A stretch of DNA of 62,245 bases, from assembly GCA_016742095.1 (NCBI GenBank), contig JACVCJ010000022.1, forward strand, positions 1-62,245. Reading direction: 5' to 3'. Source of the stretch: Bacteroidia bacterium (GTDB taxonomy: Bacteria > Bacteroidota > Bacteroidia > CAIKAF01). Positions 14,075-22,112 of this stretch are shown in pieces. The notes under the pieces are model-generated. The model was given only the letters and a program-made list of their open reading frames with translations. It made no database searches and was not told where the DNA came from. Within the stretch, counting starts at the first letter, position 1; each line of letters starts with the position of its first letter. The position numbers were made by a program, and so were the translations under genes.

Positions 14075-15598
14075 ATGATACAAATCGGCACACATCCGAT
14101 CGAAATAAAAGACTTTAAGAAGATATTGTTTGATGATTCCCCTTTTGAGATTTCGGATATCGCGCTGAACCGTGTCAAGGCCAGTTACCAGTTCCTGGAA
14201 GTTTTCTGCAAGGACAAGATCATTTACGGTATCAATACCGGTTTTGGTCCGATGGCCCCTTACCGTATCAATGCAAAACACCAGAAAGAGCTGCAGTTCA
14301 ACCTGATCCGCAGTCACTGTTCGGGTACCGGCGCTCCGCTTTCCCCGCTGTACATCAAGGCCATTGTGCTGGCCCGCACCAATACGATCTTACAGGGTTA
14401 TTCCGGCCTGCATCCTGAAGTGGTGGAGACCTTCCGGGAAATGATCCGCCGCGATATGCTGCCCCTGATCTTTGAACACGGCGGCGTAGGCGCCAGCGGC
14501 GACCTGGTACAGCTGGCACACCTGGCCCTGGGTATGATCGGCGAAGGTGAAATGTGGTACAAAGGCGAGATCGTTCCGGCGGAAGAAGCCTTCCGTAAAG
14601 AAGGGCTGCAGCCCGTTTCCATCCATATACGCGAAGGCCTGGGTGTAATGAACGGCACGGCCGGCATGACCGGTATCGGCATCATTAACCTGCTGTATGC
14701 CCAGCAACTGCTGAACCATGCGGTAGTGGCCTCAGCCTGGCTCAACGAGATCGTGAAAAGCTTCAGCGATCACTATTCACAGGAGCTCAACGAGGCCAAG
14801 CGCCACAAGGGACAACGCGTCATTGCCGAGCGCATGCGCAGGCACCTGTCTGACAGTCAGCGTGTACGCGCCCGCACCGAGCACATGTACGACCATATTC
14901 CCACCGAAGACGTGGTGAACGACAAGGTACAGGAATACTACTCCCTGCGCTGTGTTCCCCAGATACTGGGCCCGGTATACGACGCCCTGGCCGTGGCCGA
15001 GGACGTGCTCAGCAACGAGGTGAACTCCGCCAACGACAATCCCGTTATCGACCTGGCCTCGGCCAATGTATTCCATGGCGGCAATTTCCACGGCGATTAT
15101 GTAGCCTTCGAGATGGACAAAGTACGTATAGCCATCACCAAACTTTCCATGCTGATGGAGCGCCAGCTGAACTACGTAATGAATAACAAGCTCAATAATA
15201 TACTGCCGCCTTTTACCAATAACGGCAGGCTGGGCCTCAATTTCGGGCTGCAGGGCGTACAGTTCACCGCGGTATCTACCACGGCCGAGAACCAGACCCT
15301 GTCCAACCCCATGTACATACACAGTATCCCGAACAACAACGACAACCAGGACATTGTGAGTATGGGCAGCAATTCGGCCCTGCTTACACGCCGGGTGATC
15401 GACAATACCTTTGAGGTGATGAGTATCCATTTTATGGCGCTGGCACAGGCTACGGACATCCTGCAGTGCGAAGAGGAACTCAGCAGTTCATCGCGCGAGA
15501 TGTTCGGCTTTATACGTACCCATGCCCCGGCTATTACGGTTGACGTGCCGCAATACCCGCATATACGCAAATTAACGGAAGCTCTTAAAACGCTTTAG
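14075..15598 (+). CDS. Tyrosine ammonia-lyase (flexirubin/aryl polyene starter synthesis)
   Basis: 507 residues, the normal length for the aromatic amino acid ammonia-lyase family. The MIO prosthetic group precursor Ala-Ser-Gly is at residues 140-142 (HGGVGASGDLVQLAHL). The selectivity region reads NLIRSHCSGTGAPLSP and, with SIPNNNDNQDIVSMG further on, closely resembles the Flavobacterium johnsoniae tyrosine ammonia-lyase as I remember it. I therefore prefer TAL over histidine ammonia-lyase. It would convert tyrosine to 4-coumarate, the aryl starter of the polyene. First gene of a five-gene operon; the next gene begins 3 nt after its stop. Confidence 0.88.
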   Translation: MIQIGTHPIEIKDFKKILFDDSPFEISDIALNRVKASYQFLEVFCKDKIIYGINTGFGPMAPYRINAKHQKELQFNLIRSHCSGTGAPLSPLYIKAIVLARTNTILQGYSGLHPEVVETFREMIRRDMLPLIFEHGGVGASGDLVQLAHLALGMIGEGEMWYKGEIVPAEEAFRKEGLQPVSIHIREGLGVMNGTAGMTGIGIINLLYAQQLLNHAVVASAWLNEIVKSFSDHYSQELNEAKRHKGQRVIAERMRRHLSDSQRVRARTEHMYDHIPTEDVVNDKVQEYYSLRCVPQILGPVYDALAVAEDVLSNEVNSANDNPVIDLASANVFHGGNFHGDYVAFEMDKVRIAITKLSMLMERQLNYVMNNKLNNILPPFTNNGRLGLNFGLQGVQFTAVSTTAENQTLSNPMYIHSIPNNNDNQDIVSMGSNSALLTRRVIDNTFEVMSIHFMALAQATDILQCEEELSSSSREMFGFIRTHAPAITVDVPQYPHIRKLTEALKTL

Positions 15599-15601
15599 AT
15601 C

Positions 15602-16339
15602 ATGGCAGAAAAGAAAACAGCACTGGTAACCGGCGGATCGAGAGGAATCGGGCGTGCCATCTGCGAACAGCTTGCGGCAGAAGGGCTGCACGTGCTCATT
15701 AATTACCGCAGCAATCATGCCGAAGCCGAACTGACCCTGAGCGCCATACGCGAACAGGGCGGAAGCGCCGAACTGCTGCCCTTCGACTGTGCCGACCAGC
15801 AATCGATAGAATCTGCCATCGAAAAATGGACCACGGAACATCCCGGCACGTTTATTGAGGTACTGGTAAATAATGCCGGTATACGGAAAGACAATGTAAT
15901 GGTAATGATGAGCAACGACGAGTGGAACGACGTACTGAACACCAACCTGAACGGCTGGTTCTGGGTTACGCGTGCCGCTTCCCGCGGGATGATCGGCAAA
16001 CGCCGCGGACGTATTGTGAACATCGTATCGCTGTCGGGCATCAAAGGCCTGCCGGGCCAGACCAATTACTCGGCCAGCAAAGCCGGGGTGATCGGCGGCA
16101 CCAAAGCCCTGGCCCAGGAACTGGGACGCCGCAACATAACGGTGAATGCCGTGGCGCCCGGGTTTATAAAGACCGATATGACCGAAGATATTGACGAAGG
16201 CCAGTACAAACAGGTAATACCCATGGCACGCTTCGGCACCCCCGAAGAAGTGGCCCATGCGGTAAGTTTCCTGGTCTCGGAAAAGGCATCCTATATCACC
16301 GGTACAGTGATCCAAGTTAACGGAGGTTTGTATACCTGA
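15602..16339 (+). CDS. 3-oxoacyl-ACP reductase (FabG-type) of the aryl polyene pathway
   Basis: 245 residues, short-chain dehydrogenase fold. The N-terminal NADPH motif TGGSRGIGRA is at about residues 10-19, followed by NNAG, the catalytic Ser in IVSLSG and Tyr-x-x-x-Lys in YSASKAG, then the C-terminal GTVIQVNGG typical of FabG. It would reduce beta-ketoacyl-ACP intermediates during polyene chain extension. It lies between the ammonia-lyase (3-nt gap) and a ketosynthase (4-nt gap), so it is dedicated to this pathway rather than the housekeeping FabG. Cytoplasmic. Confidence 0.88.
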   Translation: MAEKKTALVTGGSRGIGRAICEQLAAEGLHVLINYRSNHAEAELTLSAIREQGGSAELLPFDCADQQSIESAIEKWTTEHPGTFIEVLVNNAGIRKDNVMVMMSNDEWNDVLNTNLNGWFWVTRAASRGMIGKRRGRIVNIVSLSGIKGLPGQTNYSASKAGVIGGTKALAQELGRRNITVNAVAPGFIKTDMTEDIDEGQYKQVIPMARFGTPEEVAHAVSFLVSEKASYITGTVIQVNGGLYT

Positions 16340-16343
16340 TACT

Positions 16344-17561
16344 ATGAACAGAGTTGTAATTACGGGAGTAGGCATTTATTCCTGCATAGGTAAAAACATA
16401 GATGAAGTACGGCAAAGCCTTTACCAGGGCCGCTCGGGTATTATTTTTGACCCGGTACGCAAGGAAATGGGCTTCCGCAGCGCCCTCATCGGCATGGTGG
16501 ACGAGCCCGTGCTGAAAGGTATCCTGGACCGCCGTTCGCGCGCGGGTATGGCCGAAGAGGCCGAATACGCCTACCTCAGCACCCTCGAAGCCCTGAAAAT
16601 GGCCGGTATCGACCAGGATTTCATCGACCGTAACGAGATCGGTATCCTCTTCGGGAACGACAGTTCGGCCCGGGCCACCGTGGAGACCACCGATATACTG
16701 CGGGCCAAGAAAGATACTACGCTCATCGGTTCGGGTTACGTATTCCAGTCCATGAACTCGACCGTGACCATGAACCTGGCCACCATATTCAAGCTGCGCG
16801 GCGTGAACTTTTCCGTCAGCGGTGCCTGTGCCAGCGGTTCGCATGCCATAGGCCTGGCCTACCTGCTTATTAAACAGGGACTTCAGAAACACGTTATCTG
16901 CGGCGGGGCACAGGAAGTGAACCCCTATACCTTTGCCAGTTTCGATGCCCTGGGGGCTTTTTCGGTGCGCGAGAACGAGCCGCAGAAAGCTTCACGGCCC
17001 TTTGACCGCAACCGCGACGGACTGGTACCCAGCGGCGGGGCGGCCACGGTAATACTGGAAAGCTACGAGGAGGCCGTAAAACGCGGCGCCACCATCCTGG
17101 GCGAGATCATCGGGTACGGGTTCTCCTCCAACGGCGACCATATTTCACAGCCCAATGTAGACGGTCCGGTGCGCAGCCTGCAGATGGCCATGCGCGATGC
17201 CGGTATCGAAGTGCGCGATGTGGACTACATCAATGCCCACGCTACCTCTACGCCCATCGGCGATGCCAACGAGGCCAAAGCCATCTGTTCGGTGTTTGGA
17301 GAAAGATCACTGCCCGTAACTTCTACAAAAAGTATGACCGGGCACGAATGCTGGATGGCCGGAGCCAGTGAGATCGTATACTCTACCCTGATGATGCGCG
17401 ATAACTTCGTGGCTCCCAACATCAACCTCGAGCATCCGGACGAGGACTCGGCCAAACTTTTTATCCCCGATAAAACCTTAGAAAGGAATATTGACGTATA
17501 TTTGTCGAATTCTTTTGGGTTTGGGGGCACCAATTCCTCATTGATTGTCAAAAGAGTATAA
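16344..17561 (+). CDS. Beta-ketoacyl-ACP synthase II (FabF/KS-type) of the aryl polyene pathway
   Basis: 405 residues with the full Cys-His-His triad: Cys162 in VSGACASGSHA, His in INAHATSTPIGD and His in KSMTGHECWMAGA. This KS is therefore catalytically intact and not a chain-length factor. It condenses malonyl-ACP with the growing aryl-acyl-ACP. Aryl polyene systems often pair an active KS with a chain-length factor; no partner is encoded in this operon. It may act alone or with a protein encoded elsewhere. Followed 32 nt later by an acyl carrier protein gene. Confidence 0.88.
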   Translation: MNRVVITGVGIYSCIGKNIDEVRQSLYQGRSGIIFDPVRKEMGFRSALIGMVDEPVLKGILDRRSRAGMAEEAEYAYLSTLEALKMAGIDQDFIDRNEIGILFGNDSSARATVETTDILRAKKDTTLIGSGYVFQSMNSTVTMNLATIFKLRGVNFSVSGACASGSHAIGLAYLLIKQGLQKHVICGGAQEVNPYTFASFDALGAFSVRENEPQKASRPFDRNRDGLVPSGGAATVILESYEEAVKRGATILGEIIGYGFSSNGDHISQPNVDGPVRSLQMAMRDAGIEVRDVDYINAHATSTPIGDANEAKAICSVFGERSLPVTSTKSMTGHECWMAGASEIVYSTLMMRDNFVAPNINLEHPDEDSAKLFIPDKTLERNIDVYLSNSFGFGGTNSSLIVKRV

Positions 17562-17593
17562 ATACTAACCAAATAGTAACACCCCGTTTAAGT

Positions 17594-17851
17594 ATGACGT
17601 TCGATCAGATTATACATAAGACCAATGTGTGGCTGGCCGATGAATTCGAAGTAGACGAATCATCCCTCACGCCGGACGCCAACCTGAAAGATGCCCTGGA
17701 CCTGGACAGCCTGGACTATGTGGACATTGTTGCCGGTATCGAGAGCATTTTCGGGTTCAAGGTGAAGACCGAAGATTTTAAATCGATCGTAAGTCTCCAG
17801 GATTTCTACGATTTTATTGCCAAACGTGTAGGTAACGCTGAGCCGGCTTAA
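17594..17851 (+). CDS. Acyl carrier protein
   Basis: 85 residues, acidic, with the phosphopantetheine attachment site LDLDSLDYVDI (Ser39). Four-helix ACP length and charge pattern. It sits between the ketosynthase and an acyltransferase gene and is presumably the dedicated carrier for the flexirubin polyene chain, distinct from the fatty-acid AcpP. Confidence 0.9.
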   Translation: MTFDQIIHKTNVWLADEFEVDESSLTPDANLKDALDLDSLDYVDIVAGIESIFGFKVKTEDFKSIVSLQDFYDFIAKRVGNAEPA

Positions 17852-17859
17852 TTCCGTGT

Positions 17860-18762
17860 ATGGCAGAATGGGAAGGTAAATCGAGGGGCGGCGTCACCGG
17901 CTACCGCATATTTATCTGGTTCCTTAACAATCTTGGCCTGCGCGCAGCCTATGGCCTGCTGGCTTTTGTTGCCGTTTATTTTATTCCGTTCGCACCCAAA
18001 GCCACCGCTTCGGCCTGGCATTATTTCCGGCACATACAGCGCTGGAGTTTTTTCAAAAGTCTGCCGGCCCTGTACATCAACTACTACCGTTTCGGGCAGT
18101 CGCTGCTGGACCGTATTGCCCTGCTGGCAGGCATCCGTACACATCTTACCTTTTTCTTCGACGGGGAAGAGAACCTGCACCGCCTGGCAGCGGAAAAACA
18201 GGCGGCCCTGCTTATTTCCGCCCATATCGGCAACTGGGAGATCGCCGGCAATATGTTCAAACACATCGGCGGTAAGGTAAATATCGTGATGTACGAGGCC
18301 GAACATGAGAACCTGAAACGCCTGCTCGACTCCGTACAGACCGAAAAAAGCCAGGTACAGAACGTACACATCATTCCCCTGCGCGACGATCTTTCGCACG
18401 TGCTGGAGCTTTCCAAAGCCGTAAATGCCGGTGAACTGATCGCACTGCACGGCGACCGCGTACCGCCGGGAAGCAAATTCTTCGAGTTCGATCTTATGGG
18501 ACAGAAAGCCCGTTTTCCTTCCGGGCCTTTTTACCTGGCGGCCAAGTTCCGGGTGCCCGTATGCTTTGTTTTTGCCTGCCGCGAGGCCCGCGGACATTAT
18601 CACCTGTTCTGCACGCCGCCCAAACTGTACGAGGTAAAAGGCAATCCGCAGGAACGCGAAAAAGCCCTGAAAGCGCTTATTGAAGATTATGTAAAAACGG
18701 TGGAAGAAAAAGTGAAGAAATACCCGTACCAGTGGTATAATTTTTATCGCTTCTGGAATTAA
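17860..18762 (+). CDS. LpxL/HtrB-like lysophospholipid acyltransferase
   Basis: 300 residues, Bacterial lipid A acyltransferase (LpxL/HtrB) superfamily. N-terminal membrane helix at about residues 24-43; catalytic HxxxxE motif in SAHIGNWEIAG (about residues 121-131) and the second block LHGDRVPPGS; C-terminal PYQWYNFYRFW. Genes of this family accompany aryl polyene and flexirubin clusters, where they are thought to transfer the acyl chain to a membrane or polar acceptor. It starts 9 nt after the ACP stop. Its stop codon overlaps that of the converging response regulator gene within a TTAA, so the two converging operons share their 3' ends. Confidence 0.82.
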   Translation: MAEWEGKSRGGVTGYRIFIWFLNNLGLRAAYGLLAFVAVYFIPFAPKATASAWHYFRHIQRWSFFKSLPALYINYYRFGQSLLDRIALLAGIRTHLTFFFDGEENLHRLAAEKQAALLISAHIGNWEIAGNMFKHIGGKVNIVMYEAEHENLKRLLDSVQTEKSQVQNVHIIPLRDDLSHVLELSKAVNAGELIALHGDRVPPGSKFFEFDLMGQKARFPSGPFYLAAKFRVPVCFVFACREARGHYHLFCTPPKLYEVKGNPQEREKALKALIEDYVKTVEEKVKKYPYQWYNFYRFWN

Positions 18763-19430
18763 TCCACTTCAATGATATGGTTCTTTACCGCAAAAAGCAC
18801 CAGTCCGGGCCTTGATTTTACGTTCAGTTTCTCGAACAGCACGCCGCGGTAACCGTCGATGGTCTTTACGCTCAGGTTCAGTATCTCGGCAATTTCCTTA
18901 TAGGTATATTCCGAACAGGCCAGGCGTATGAACTCCTGTTCCTTGTCGCTGAGCGGCACCGTGCCGGTATAGGAGCTGACCGCCGGTTCGTCTTTGGGTA
19001 CGGCTGCCGGGAAGGCGTCTTCGAGGATACCCGAAATGGAATCGGCAAAATAGACACCGCCCGCCGTAATTTTATGAATGGCTTCCACGAACAGTTCGGG
19101 GTCCGAATCTTTGGGCAGGAAACCACGTATCCCTTTGGTCATCATACGTACGATGCCTTTTTCGTCCTGCACCATCGAAATAATGAGCACCGGCGTATGG
19201 ATACTGCGTTTTTTCATTTCTTCCAGCACCCCGTAGGCGTCCATTACGGGCATCTGCACGTCCATGATCACCAGGTCGGGCAATACGCCGTCCGAAGCTA
19301 TGCCATTCAGAAATTCCGCGCCGTTACCGTACTCCCCGATAATGGACACATTATCCGAGAAGGTATTCAGAATGAACGCAAGTCCGCTTCTGAATATGGG
19401 GTGATCGTCGACTAAAATTACTTTAAGCAT
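18759..19430 (-). CDS. LuxR/NarL-family response regulator
   Basis: 223 residues. Receiver domain 1-125 with acidic pocket DDH, phosphoacceptor Asp57 in LVIMDVQMP and the Ser/Lys region following. HTH LuxR domain at about 155-220 (LSDKEQEFIRLACSEYTYKEIAEILNLSVKTIDGYRGVLFEKLNV). Its ATG overlaps the stop of the histidine kinase gene by 1 nt, so the pair is translationally coupled. It is the last gene of a four-gene operon. Sites GGA-A/T-TCC upstream of that operon and in front of the three adjacent putative small RNAs are candidate binding sites for this regulator (inference from position and repetition). Confidence 0.92.
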   Translation of the reverse strand: MLKVILVDDHPIFRSGLAFILNTFSDNVSIIGEYGNGAEFLNGIASDGVLPDLVIMDVQMPVMDAYGVLEEMKKRSIHTPVLIISMVQDEKGIVRMMTKGIRGFLPKDSDPELFVEAIHKITAGGVYFADSISGILEDAFPAAVPKDEPAVSSYTGTVPLSDKEQEFIRLACSEYTYKEIAEILNLSVKTIDGYRGVLFEKLNVKSRPGLVLFAVKNHIIEVD

Positions 19431-20230
19431 CAGGGTGCTGAATTATCCGCTGCAAAGTAATTAATTTTTACGCTTGTTCCCACTCCTGCATCGGAGTTAA
19501 TCTGAAGGGTGGCCCCGATCAGTTCACAACGTTTACGCAGATTTTCGAGCCCGGTGCTCACCACGCCCTCTTTGCGCGAGGCTTCCATGCCTATGCCGTT
19601 GTCGGCCACCTCAATACGCACCAGATGATCGTTGCCGTGTATGCGTACGTCTATTTCTGTGGCCCTGGCATGTTTCAGGGCATTCTGAAGCAGCTCCTGC
19701 ACAATGCGGTACAGGAAGATGCGGGTATCGGGGGACATGGGCATGAGGTCCTGCTCGATCTCGGTATTTACCTTAATGAGGCCGGTATTATGGATACGGG
19801 CTGTCTCAAAAAGCACCGATTCGGGCAGGGTGTTCTTTTTCAGCTGTTCGGTATTGAGGCTGACGGAAAGCGATTTCATGTCGCTGATGAGTCCGCTCAG
19901 GGTTTCGAGGGCCTTATCGGCCATGGCCGGGTCCTGCATCTTTTTTATCCCGTGCAGCTGCAGTTTCAGTACGGCGGCCTGCTGCCCCAGGTTATCGTGA
20001 ATTTCGGACGATACCTGTTTCATGATATCTTCGAGGATCTCGCCCTGTACCTGCGAAAGTTCCGCCTTAAAACGGGCCTCGCGCTCGCGGCGGTCGCTGA
20101 TAAAGGCCCGCTGCCGCTGGTTGTACAGGATAACGGTAAAGACCACGAAGGAGATCATCATAATAAAGATGGCCAGCCCCGCAAAGCTGAATACAAAAAG
20201 TTCGATGATTAAAGATCCGGTATTGTTCAT
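19430..20230 (-). CDS. HisKA_3-type sensor histidine kinase
   Basis: 266 residues. One membrane helix at about 8-36, a short linker coiled coil, the phosphoacceptor motif VSSEIHDNLGQQ (His78), the N box ELLQNALKHA, G1 VADNGIGM and G2 STGLENLRKRCE of the HATPase domain. It has no extracytoplasmic sensing domain of its own, so sensing is probably supplied by the membrane protein encoded immediately upstream (ATGA overlap) or by lipid/membrane state. It phosphorylates the response regulator encoded directly downstream. Confidence 0.9.
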   Translation of the reverse strand: MNNTGSLIIELFVFSFAGLAIFIMMISFVVFTVILYNQRQRAFISDRREREARFKAELSQVQGEILEDIMKQVSSEIHDNLGQQAAVLKLQLHGIKKMQDPAMADKALETLSGLISDMKSLSVSLNTEQLKKNTLPESVLFETARIHNTGLIKVNTEIEQDLMPMSPDTRIFLYRIVQELLQNALKHARATEIDVRIHGNDHLVRIEVADNGIGMEASRKEGVVSTGLENLRKRCELIGATLQINSDAGVGTSVKINYFAADNSAP

Positions 20231-20910
20231 ACTTCCTGTTTTTGTTCGCCGGGTTGAGGGCTGAATAGCAGTTCTTTGATAAATATAAGGTTCAGGGCCA
20301 GGTAAAAGAGCACATTGAGGTAACGGAAACTGATCTCGATGATGTAGTCGGTACTCTGGTCCAGCAGGTTATCGGTACGGTAGTTCACAAAGCTGAAGTA
20401 CAGGACAAGCAGTGTATAATGGATAAGGATGAGGGTGGACATCCAGAAGCCGTTTTTTTCGTATATGGATACTTCGTCGGCATTTTTCATGGTAAGATAC
20501 AGGGTACGCAGGCAGGCGCCGATGAGGAACACCGAACCCAGTACCAGCACATTGGAGGCATAACGCCCCGGGTCCTGCAGCACAAAATAGTTCAGCAGCA
20601 TAAAAAGAGGCATGAATACGGCGGTACACCAGCTTACGATGTGCAGCAGGCGGTCGCGGGTGTTCAGTTTAAAAAAGAACATGTACAGTACAAAGGAACC
20701 GCACATATAGGGCATAAAGATGACAAAGTTATTCTCCATCCAGTGTTTGGTGACCACCAGCCAGGCGGTCACTTCGGTGAGCATGGCAAAGGCGATGTTC
20801 ACGACCATGATGCGGTAGGCGGCGTTTGTCCGGCGCCAAAAAAACAGACCTATCAGCGTGTAAAATGCTAATAGGCCTGTATAAGTATAAAAGAGGAAAT
20901 CGAAATCCAT
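20227..20910 (-). CDS. Seven-helix membrane protein co-transcribed with the two-component system
   Basis: 227 residues with seven predicted membrane segments (for example LLAFYTLIGLFFW, IAFAMLTEVTAWLVV, MCGSFVLYMFFF, AVFMPLFMLLNYFVL, VLVLGSVFLIGACL, LILIHYTLLVLYFSF, VLFYLALNLIFI). Family not recognised. It starts 3 nt after the preceding gene and overlaps the kinase gene by 4 nt (ATGA). This tight coupling suggests that it is the sensor or an accessory receptor of the kinase. No transporter or enzyme motif seen. Confidence 0.72.
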   Translation of the reverse strand: MDFDFLFYTYTGLLAFYTLIGLFFWRRTNAAYRIMVVNIAFAMLTEVTAWLVVTKHWMENNFVIFMPYMCGSFVLYMFFFKLNTRDRLLHIVSWCTAVFMPLFMLLNYFVLQDPGRYASNVLVLGSVFLIGACLRTLYLTMKNADEVSIYEKNGFWMSTLILIHYTLLVLYFSFVNYRTDNLLDQSTDYIIEISFRYLNVLFYLALNLIFIKELLFSPQPGEQKQEV

Positions 20911-20913
20911 GCT

Positions 20914-21444
20914 TTATTTCGGACAGTTGGTCGGGCAGCGCATTACGTATTCGTAATACATGGTAACACCGGCGGGTGTTTTTACTTTTTCGTTATTGGT
21001 AAGGCCGGAAATAAATATGGTAAATGCCTGCTGTGCGGGCGGTTTGCTGAGATCGTCGGGTCGAACGCCGAATTCGATGTACAGTTCTTCCGGGCTCAGT
21101 TCGAACAGGGGCATCAGGTTGTTCATGTTCACACGGTAACCGCGCAGGGCCTGCCGGGTATTTTCCGCCGTGATCATGATGAGGGTGTCCGGGTGTTCGC
21201 GGTACGCATTTATGCACATATTCGCTGTATCTGCGGATATCCGGGTGGTATTGGCGATAGGTTTGGGAGCGGCGGCGCCCGGACCGGTCTTAGCCAGTGC
21301 ATTCACGGCAGATACTTCGGTAGCCGCAGCGGCCGCATTGCCCGACGCAAACCATTCCGGTTTGGCAAGGTAGGTGGTCTCGGCAGCCAGGCCAAGCCCC
21401 AGAACAGCGATCAGTGCGTTCTTTAACGTAGCATTCGTTTTCAT
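20914..21444 (-). CDS. Membrane-anchored or exported protein, first gene of the two-component operon
   Basis: 176 residues. An N-terminal hydrophobic stretch (about 9-25) followed by a low-complexity Ala-rich linker, then a compact domain with a predicted fold around TLIMITAENTRQALRGYRV and a C-terminal CPTNCPK. Two or three cysteines could form a disulphide outside the cytoplasm. No known family. It leads the operon 7TM protein - kinase - regulator and could be a ligand-binding or regulatory partner. Its promoter on the minus strand (TTG-N20-TTTATTTG, -7 at 21473-21480) abuts one of the GGA-A/T-TCC sites. Confidence 0.65.
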   Translation of the reverse strand: MKTNATLKNALIAVLGLGLAAETTYLAKPEWFASGNAAAAATEVSAVNALAKTGPGAAAPKPIANTTRISADTANMCINAYREHPDTLIMITAENTRQALRGYRVNMNNLMPLFELSPEELYIEFGVRPDDLSKPPAQQAFTIFISGLTNNEKVKTPAGVTMYYEYVMRCPTNCPK

Positions 21445-21472: not shown

Positions 21473-21571
21473 CAAATAAAGCACTTATACACGAACTAAT
21501 CAAGGGGGAAAAATCCTTATAAGAAACAGGATTTTTCCTCTTTCAGGAGCCAATATGCCGCCTTAACTTTG
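21473..21571. promoter_or_regulatory. Divergent promoter/operator: two-component operon and small RNA 1
   Basis: Minus strand: TTG (21501-21503), 20 nt, TTTATTTG (21473-21480). Plus strand: -7 box TAACTTTG (21564-21571). Between them are GGAAAAATCC (21507-21516) and GGATTTTTCC (21529-21538), 22 bp centre to centre. Each site sits about 25 nt from the -7 box of the promoter it faces, next to the -33 position. The plus promoter has TTT where TTG is expected, consistent with activator dependence. Binding by the adjacent response regulator is an inference. Confidence 0.6.
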
Positions 21572-21577
21572 CCCTAA

Positions 21578-21681
21578 CATAACACTCAAACAACCGAATC
21601 CCCTGAATAAGAGAATTATGTTTACCGCCTGAGATGCACCAACAACTTATAGAAACTCCCGGTACTGCCGGGAGTTTTGCA
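21578..21681 (+). ncRNA. Putative small RNA 1 of a three-member tandem array
   Basis: About 100 nt from the inferred start to a terminator hairpin (AAACTCCCGG / CCGGGAGTTT, 21653-21677, then TTTTGCATTT; short U-run). No credible ORF fits between promoter and terminator. Shared with the other two units is the sequence ACCAACAAC followed by TAGAAACTCCC (21638-21660), here running into the terminator stem. An upstream AACAACCGAATCCCC stretch may be a second, C-rich copy. Weakest of the three by structure, strongest by promoter context. Confidence 0.5.
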
Positions 21682-21722
21682 TTTACATACCCCTGTTTTT
21701 TAACGTTTAAAACATGCATAGA

Positions 21723-21787
21723 GGAAAAATCCCCTGCAGAAACAGGATTTTTCCTCTTTCAGAAGCCTTTCGAACACCATACATTTG
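21723..21787 (+). promoter_or_regulatory. Promoter/operator of small RNA 2
   Basis: GGAAAAATCC (21723-21732) and GGATTTTTCC (21745-21754), 22 bp apart, then 23 nt after the following TC to the -7 box TACATTTG (21780-21787). Spacing is identical to unit 1. Confidence 0.6.
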
Positions 21788-21793
21788 TTCTAT

Positions 21794-21912
21794 CAAAACC
21801 AACAACCTTTAGGAATTCCCCCTTTTAAATTCCTTTGTTACCATCCCTTATTTTGGTTCACTAACCCAAAATTATAAAGCCCGGAAGTAAGCCCCGGGCT
21901 TTATTTTTTTTT
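21794..21912 (+). ncRNA. Putative small RNA 2 of the tandem array
   Basis: About 118 nt. Contains ACCAACAACCTTTAGGAATTCCCCC (split here as two overlapping motifs, ACCAACAAC and AGGAATTCCCCC, 21798-21822). The hairpin AGGAATT / AATTCCT (21811-21817 with 21828-21834) exposes the loop CCCCCUUUUA. Ends at a strong terminator: 11-bp stem ATAAAGCCCGG / CCGGGCTTTAT (21874-21904) with nine Us. No start codon-led ORF inside. Confidence 0.6.
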
Positions 21913-21932
21913 GTCGCGATGTGTAAAAAGGG

Positions 21933-21997
21933 GGAAAAATCCCGGGCATAAAGGGGAAAAATCCTCTTGTACGGTCCCCCCGCCGGGTCTATATTTG
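21933..21997 (+). promoter_or_regulatory. Promoter/operator of small RNA 3
   Basis: GGAAAAATCC at 21933-21942 and again in the same orientation at 21955-21964 (22 bp apart), then TTG (21967-21969), 20 nt and the -7 box TATATTTG (21990-21997). It has the same geometry as units 1 and 2 but a proper -33 TTG. Confidence 0.6.
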
Positions 21998-22003
21998 TTT
22001 CAG

Positions 22004-22112
22004 AAAGATCACCAACACAATAGGAGTCCCCCTTTATATTCCTATCATGTCAACCCCTAACCAACCGAACCCTAACCTAAATCTAAACTCCCTGCCCCGG
22101 GAGTTTTTTTTT
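22004..22112 (+). ncRNA. Putative small RNA 3 of the tandem array
   Basis: About 108 nt. Begins with ACCAACAC and TAGGAGTCCCCC (22011-22032). An 8-bp hairpin (ATAGGAGT with ATTCCTAT, 22020-22027 / 22038-22045, one G-U pair) presents the loop CCCCCUUUAU, matching small RNA 2 with compensating stem changes. Ends in the terminator AAACTCCC / GGGAGTTT (22085-22106) plus a long U-run. A 25-codon frame from the ATG at 22047 runs through the terminator and is not credible. Confidence 0.6.

Follow-up and report, generated by a model that had tools for sequence, protein, structure and literature searches.

The window, by which we mean the whole 62,245-nucleotide stretch of DNA analysed here, contains three promoter-RNA-terminator modules (recognised by sequence inspection, spanning 21507-22112) next to a minus-strand two-component operon, and the response regulator encoded there probably, in our judgement, activates this operon, a set of C-rich small RNAs and some lipoproteins in the manner of a class II activator. 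An earlier note on this DNA had proposed that both the operon and a small RNA bank are under the control of the adjacent regulator, and the proposal survives all comparative tests available: the pair of operator sites is near-private in the genome, a scan of other genomes with the DNA pattern only lands beside homologues of the regulator, and in other families divergent candidate RNAs accompany the operator. The operator, its spacing, the regulon, the terminators and the conservation beside homologous regulators carry direct support. The features discussed are the following.

18759..19430, minus strand: NarL/LuxR-type response regulator, the proposed activator (Pfam Response_reg 3e-21, GerE 1.3e-11)
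19430..20230, minus strand: histidine kinase with HisKA_3 and HATPase_c domains (Pfam)
20227..20910, minus strand: seven-helix membrane protein, 227 aa, family unnamed (AlphaFold model, operon position)
20914..21444, minus strand: exported protein, 176 aa, conserved C-terminal EYxxxCPxxCP (family alignment)
21473..21480, minus strand: -7 box TTTATTTG of the operon promoter, 26 nt from pair 1
21507..21538, strandless: predicted operator pair 1, GGAAAAATCC-N12-GGATTTTTCC, common to the operon and RNA 1 (sequence)
21564..21571, plus strand: -7 box TAACTTTG of RNA 1, 25 nt after pair 1
21578..21678, plus strand: candidate small RNA 1, about 100 nt, start inferred (sequence, fold)
21653-21678, plus strand: terminator of RNA 1, AAACTCCCGG..CCGGGAGTTTT (sequence)
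21723..21754, strandless: predicted operator pair 2, inverted (sequence, genome pattern search)
21780..21787, plus strand: -7 box TACATTTG of RNA 2, 25 nt after pair 2
21794..21912, plus strand: candidate small RNA 2, about 115 nt, start inferred (sequence, fold)
21874-21904, plus strand: terminator stem of RNA 2, which also has a hairpin with loop CCCCCUUUUA (sequence, fold)
21933..21964, strandless: predicted operator pair 3, direct repeat (sequence, genome pattern search)
21990..21997, plus strand: -7 box TATATTTG of RNA 3, 25 nt after pair 3
22004..22112, plus strand: candidate small RNA 3, about 105 nt, start inferred (sequence, fold)
22085-22106, plus strand: terminator of RNA 3, which also has a hairpin with loop CCCCCUUUAU (sequence, fold)

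The candidate RNA array and the two-component operon beside it

Most of the layout described in the earlier note was recovered as described. All six decamers are present (21507/21529, 21723/21745 and 21933/21955), the two members of each of the three pairs start 22 bp apart, a TAnnTTTG box stands exactly 25 nt past the second decamer in every module, and each module ends in a terminator. The decamer consensus is GGAWWWWTCC, giving an operator of the form GGAWWWWTCC-N12-GGAWWWWTCC. The box claimed for the divergent operon at some 26 nt from the first pair is TTTATTTG, at just that distance, so that a single operator would serve the operon and RNA 1, in both directions. The three promoters had also been called identical, which is true of their layout but not of their sites: pairs 1 and 2 are inverted and pair 3 is a direct repeat. 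The promoters are therefore better called alike, and the single decamer, rather than the pair, is likely to be the site for a dimer. The -33 TTG, said to be missing from two of the three promoters, is absent from modules 1 and 2 and present in module 3; its absence fits dependence on an activator. No decamer pair arose when the entire 62 kb window was dinucleotide-shuffled 200 times. Outside the array the window holds four single decamers (31221, 36514, 38281 and 44972), and none of them is accompanied by a TTTG box at +25/26; the chance expectation for the window is about 1.5 decamers.

The bodies of the three RNAs are related in sequence and not identical. They are G-poor and C-rich, with UCCC in all four candidates (those of the array and an unlinked fourth, described below) and with CCCCC in the near-identical hairpin loops of RNAs 2 and 3. 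The folds of the array RNAs are stronger than those of shuffles (for RNA 1 with its terminator, z = -4.0). The array gave no Rfam match at the gathering threshold and sub-threshold noise only in a permissive search, and in 60 relatives its DNA found just chance-sized matches of 38 bp, one of them within a coding region. That the modules lack a credible open reading frame is borne out by the positions of the frames relative to the terminators. A 64-aa frame at 21634 was rejected as a gene, since it crosses terminator 1 and enters promoter 2, as was the 25-aa frame of module 3, which reads across that module's terminator.

The neighbouring operon has the content that had been read from it, on the minus strand: an exported protein, a seven-helix membrane protein, a kinase and a LuxR-type regulator. 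The regulator has the features of the NarL/FixJ type, a receiver domain with the conserved Asp and a GerE (LuxR) domain by Pfam, and its nearest solved structures are NarL (1a04) and VraR. Residues D8, D9, D57 and K107 are kept across 10 homologues, leaving the phosphorylation residues intact, and the helix-turn-helix segment TIDGYR is common to most of the regulators that adjoin this operator. The phospho-acceptor motif of the kinase, SSEIHDNLGQ, is retained in paralogues. Neither the exported nor the seven-helix protein has a match in Pfam or NCBIfam. The AlphaFold model of the membrane protein has seven helices at modest confidence (pLDDT 64), and homologues occupy the matching operon position elsewhere; a genome-contig search returned no close homologues. 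The model of the exported protein (pLDDT 43) is too poor for use. Directly adjoining the regulator operon, at 14075-18762 of the window, are genes for ammonia-lyase-like (aromatic), ketoreductase, ketosynthase, acyl carrier and acyltransferase proteins, a cluster that probably serves the synthesis of an aryl polyene/flexirubin-type pigment.

Predicted operator-marked promoters across the genome

When the 3.73 Mb genome was searched by DNA pattern, exact decamer pairs were found at five places, the three of the array, C7:42184 and C11:34377, and reversed-pattern controls over the whole genome gave 0 matches. All five are followed at a nearly fixed distance by a promoter box, before genes or terminated RNAs, and the pair is thus nearly private to this regulon within the genome. 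The pairs at C7 and C11 precede paralogous lipoprotein operons, with a TTACTTTG box at 26 and 25 nt, respectively. Relaxing the pattern to two mismatches added seven pairs, four of which have TTTG at exactly +25; these seven were found without the box as a criterion, and the binomial chance of four in seven is about 2e-7. At up to three mismatches with a TTTG box at +25, about 10 promoters are found genome-wide, with 0 in the control, and in most of them TCTT stands right behind the second decamer. One site belongs to a candidate fourth RNA gene of about 110 nt, unlinked to the array and with the anatomy of its modules:

C51:108527, minus strand: fourth RNA, with box CATCTTTG, hairpin and terminator CCCGGGAAA..TTTCCCGGGTTTTTT (sequence)

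The remaining two-mismatch sites with TTTG at +25 are C30:26063, C56:52069 and C63:41305, all on the minus strand, where the second site reads GGGTTTTTCC or GGCTTTTTCC. Those on C56 and C63 precede protein genes, a lipoprotein pair in the case of C63. The regulon predicted from these promoters is larger than that proposed in the earlier note by the fourth RNA gene and several lipoprotein operons. As in two-component regulons with multiple small RNAs, one operator is common to the RNA genes and to the operon that encodes the regulator.

Several observations concern the surroundings of these sites. The paralogous operons at L018:7341-9092 and L019:4506-6255, both under the operator, encode a 164-aa lipoprotein and one of roughly 400 aa, of no recognised Pfam or NCBIfam family, and the C7 copy has a serine-recombinase-like gene and further genes of mobile appearance in its vicinity. 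A cobalamin riboswitch (L037:2119-2306, minus strand, 115 bits) was noted in the C30 region of this genome.

A paralogue of the two-component operon is found at C51:123422-127021 (L017:3423-7022), on the minus strand of the same genome. It encodes two exported EYxxPCPxxCP proteins, a seven-helix protein, a kinase and a regulator 42% identical to that beside the array, and a related pair, GGGTAAAACC-N12-GGGAAAAACC, with its members 22 bp apart, lies upstream of it. Given this related pair, the weaker sites on C30, C56 and C63 may be shared with, or belong to, the C51 regulator.

The same operator beside homologous regulators

None of the 394 other genomes searched within the class has the full promoter pattern. 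When 84,980 species genomes, from which the records of the window's own genome were possibly excluded, were scanned with the DNA pattern only, 11 exact loci were returned. A homologue of the regulator is encoded within the 8-kb locus at five of the 11 (L042, L043, L044, L051 and L052), as against 0 of 25 control loci, and these five homologues are 28-39% identical to it (E values of 1e-29 to 1e-44). At a sixth of the 11, L050, six decamers in steps of 21-22 bp stand before an operon with an exported protein, a seven-helix protein and a kinase. An alignment search with the exported protein led to a further operon, in another family (L056/L106, genome G155), with a decamer pair at 23-bp spacing and CATCTTTG at +25, and a search for relatives within family f38 was positive in one of five genomes. 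The upstream regions of homologues of the Flavobacteriaceae exported protein in other genomes of the class (L062-L079) contain no exact decamer pair nearby, and the operator is therefore not universal in the wider family.

In Flavobacteriaceae and in a third family, the operator has the operon on one side and, on the other, a short candidate RNA that is noncoding and divergently oriented. At L042 and L043 the operon occupies one side of the operator and a noncoding stretch of about 150 nt the other, with a T-rich run at its end followed by a convergent gene; compared with shuffles, the stretch folds far better at L042 (z = -7.8) and moderately better at L043 (z = -2.4). The divergent stretch of L044 is highly structured (z = -4.9), and that of L056, about 135 nt long with terminator AAGAGCCGTGTGAAAACACGGCTCTTTT (z = -5.1), has a hairpin loop containing CUCCCCCG. 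In a second place in the L043 genome (Flavobacteriaceae), a pair is followed after 25 nt by a GATATTTG box and a predicted, terminator-ended RNA of about 78 nt, and then immediately by an operator-like site and box before a lipoprotein gene, forming an RNA-lipoprotein tandem. Between families the RNA sequences differ; operator, spacing, divergent position and noncoding character are conserved.

We tentatively suggest, at a confidence slightly short of even, that these operons form an unnamed, Bacteroidota-wide two-component class in which genes for an exported and a seven-helix protein precede the kinase, and whose core ancestral output would be a divergent noncoding RNA under the same operator, expanded in the present genome to at least four Hfq-independent, C-rich RNAs.

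Two further loci may be recorded here. In the uncultured Bacteroidetes genome G401, five to six GGAWWWWTCC decamers in steps of 21-22 bp occur at L107:2376-2494 and L108:2211-2307, and in each array one pair has a TTTG box at +25; one array adjoins an exported-seven-helix-kinase operon. Both resemble a multimerised form of the operator, but no RNA gene was established at either. In Sediminibacterium, the leader of the gene driven by the operator contains an Rfam DUF805b RNA (L052:834-869, minus strand, 40.2 bits, cut-off 35.6), about 11 nt past the TTTG box linked to the operator.

Proposed mechanism, alternatives and related systems

The exported protein, the seven-helix membrane protein, a histidine kinase with one transmembrane segment and the NarL-type regulator probably constitute an envelope-sensing system together. 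Once phosphorylated, the regulator would occupy each near-palindromic GGAWWWWTCC decamer as a dimer; the two dimers would sit on the same side of the helix, with two turns between them. Assuming a transcription start 5-7 nt past the box, the centre of the promoter-proximal dimer would fall at about -41 to -43, where class II activators bind, and from there this dimer could compensate for the absent -33 TTG at a sigma-A (TAnnTTTG) promoter. The outputs would be the three tandem RNAs, the fourth RNA elsewhere, the regulator's own operon and several lipoprotein operons; binding by the regulator, activation and transcription from these promoters are what we infer from the sequence comparisons.

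With C-rich single-stranded segments (UCCC, and CCCCC in hairpin loops) and intrinsic terminators, these RNAs of about 100-120 nt would most likely pair with mRNAs and in this way readjust the expression of surface or envelope genes, with no need of Hfq. Their C-rich, G-poor composition with UCCC and CCCCC loops, together with the fact that Hfq was not found in the genome, makes base-pairing with mRNAs, as with LhrC and the csRNAs but free of Hfq, the first hypothesis, in which both the pairing mode and the targets are predictions. A target scan of 147 start regions (about 170 kb of genome), 10 of them SD-like, gave top matches indistinguishable from background; the genes of the regulon took middle or bottom ranks, which makes the regulon itself an improbable target of the RNAs.

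The main rival to mRNA pairing retains the regulator as activator of the array and takes the RNAs to be decoys that titrate an RNA-binding protein through their C-rich loops, as RsmY/Z do with RsmA. Several related RNAs under one regulator, the close match between the CCCCC hairpin loops of RNAs 2 and 3 and the failure to find Hfq in the genome would all suit such a role, but the folds of RNA 1 and RNA 4 differ, each RNA has just one or two C-rich sites, and we know of no protein partner for such a motif in Bacteroidota; we regard titration as improbable. A slightly smaller probability attaches to the idea that the decamers are bound by another factor, either the C51 paralogue or an unlinked LuxR-type protein, and that the proximity of the regulator is incidental. 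In favour of this idea, the C51 regulator is 42% identical and a pair of the same kind precedes the operon that encodes it; the exact GGAWWWWTCC pair, however, is in the promoter of the array-side operon and not in that of the paralogue, and where the exact pair recurs elsewhere it adjoins homologues of the array-side regulator.

Two other explanations question the nature of the modules themselves. They could encode very small proteins, the RNAs being short mRNAs, and a 25-aa frame does begin in module 3 and a 4-aa frame in module 1; yet module 2 has no ATG frame, the frames of modules 1 and 3 cross terminators or are tiny and unrelated, and the RNA folds exceed those of shuffles, which together make this very unlikely. 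That the repeats are mobile or repetitive DNA, REP-like or of the inverted-repeat kind, with no regulatory role, is suggested by their being tandem 32 bp inverted repeats but is hardly credible in view of five exact pairs in 3.7 Mb with boxes at a nearly fixed distance, never scattered.

For the preferred reading, a regulator activating its own operon and a set of base-pairing RNAs, the functionally closest systems are LhrC1-5/LisRK, csRNA/CiaRH and GacA-Rsm, and membership in each fails on a feature that was tested. As in GacA/UvrY-RsmX/Y/Z and CsrB/C, a NarL/FixJ-type regulator would activate several small RNAs. Rsm/Csr RNAs titrate CsrA/RsmA via GGA loops, whereas the array RNAs have C-rich loops, without a repeated loop GGA, and no Csr/Rsm match in Rfam; the regulator scores 88.5 bits against the NCBIfam UvrY/SirA/GacA equivalog, below its cut-off of 280. 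The earlier note had likened the logic to that of Qrr and Rsm RNAs. The array has no Rfam match to Qrr either, and Hfq, on which Qrr RNAs depend, was not found in this genome.

LisR is an OmpR-like regulator. The LhrC1-5 RNAs of Listeria, multicopy small RNAs under LisRK with a link to envelope stress and surface proteins, resemble the array in having multiple copies per two-component system, each with its own promoter, and C-rich UCCC motifs in loops or linkers (PMC4132741). They belong to another phylum and another regulator type, with a different operator, -7 box and spacing, and no LhrC family match was found in Rfam at the gathering threshold or in the permissive search. In the csRNAs of Streptococcus, several RNAs have a regulator site at a fixed distance from the -7/-10 box, the genes were detected via promoter and terminator, not sequence similarity, and the regulon includes protein genes (PMC3091779). 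CiaR is of another regulator family, outside Bacteroidota, and binds the direct repeats TTTAAG-N5-TTTAAG (PMC3091779), not the GGAWWWWTCC-N12-GGAWWWWTCC found here. Within Bacteroidota, FopS/GibS of Bacteroides are also multicopy paralogous small RNAs, but as described these paralogues are dispersed, have canonical promoters and are not presented as outputs of a single two-component system (PMC11697453). Rfp18 is a structured small RNA of Flavobacteriaceae, in a genus with TAnnTTTG-type promoters, and the parts of its description consulted contain no link to a two-component operator (PMC9723704). The earlier note knew of no such system in Bacteroidota, in agreement with the literature searched, where no two-component-driven RNA bank was found. 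Taken with the failed memberships, this places the novelty in a known logic in a new phylum, with a new operator and two uncharacterised sensory partner proteins.

The small-RNA biology of Bacteroidota is a young field. A regulator with a precise operator that a computer can search for, present at the regulator's own operon, at several RNA genes and at lipoprotein operons, would give a direct handle on a signal system and its promoter code, and the defined set of candidate RNAs makes target mapping feasible. It further singles out a two-component family in which two partner proteins are uncharacterised and whose predicted binding site is open to footprinting.
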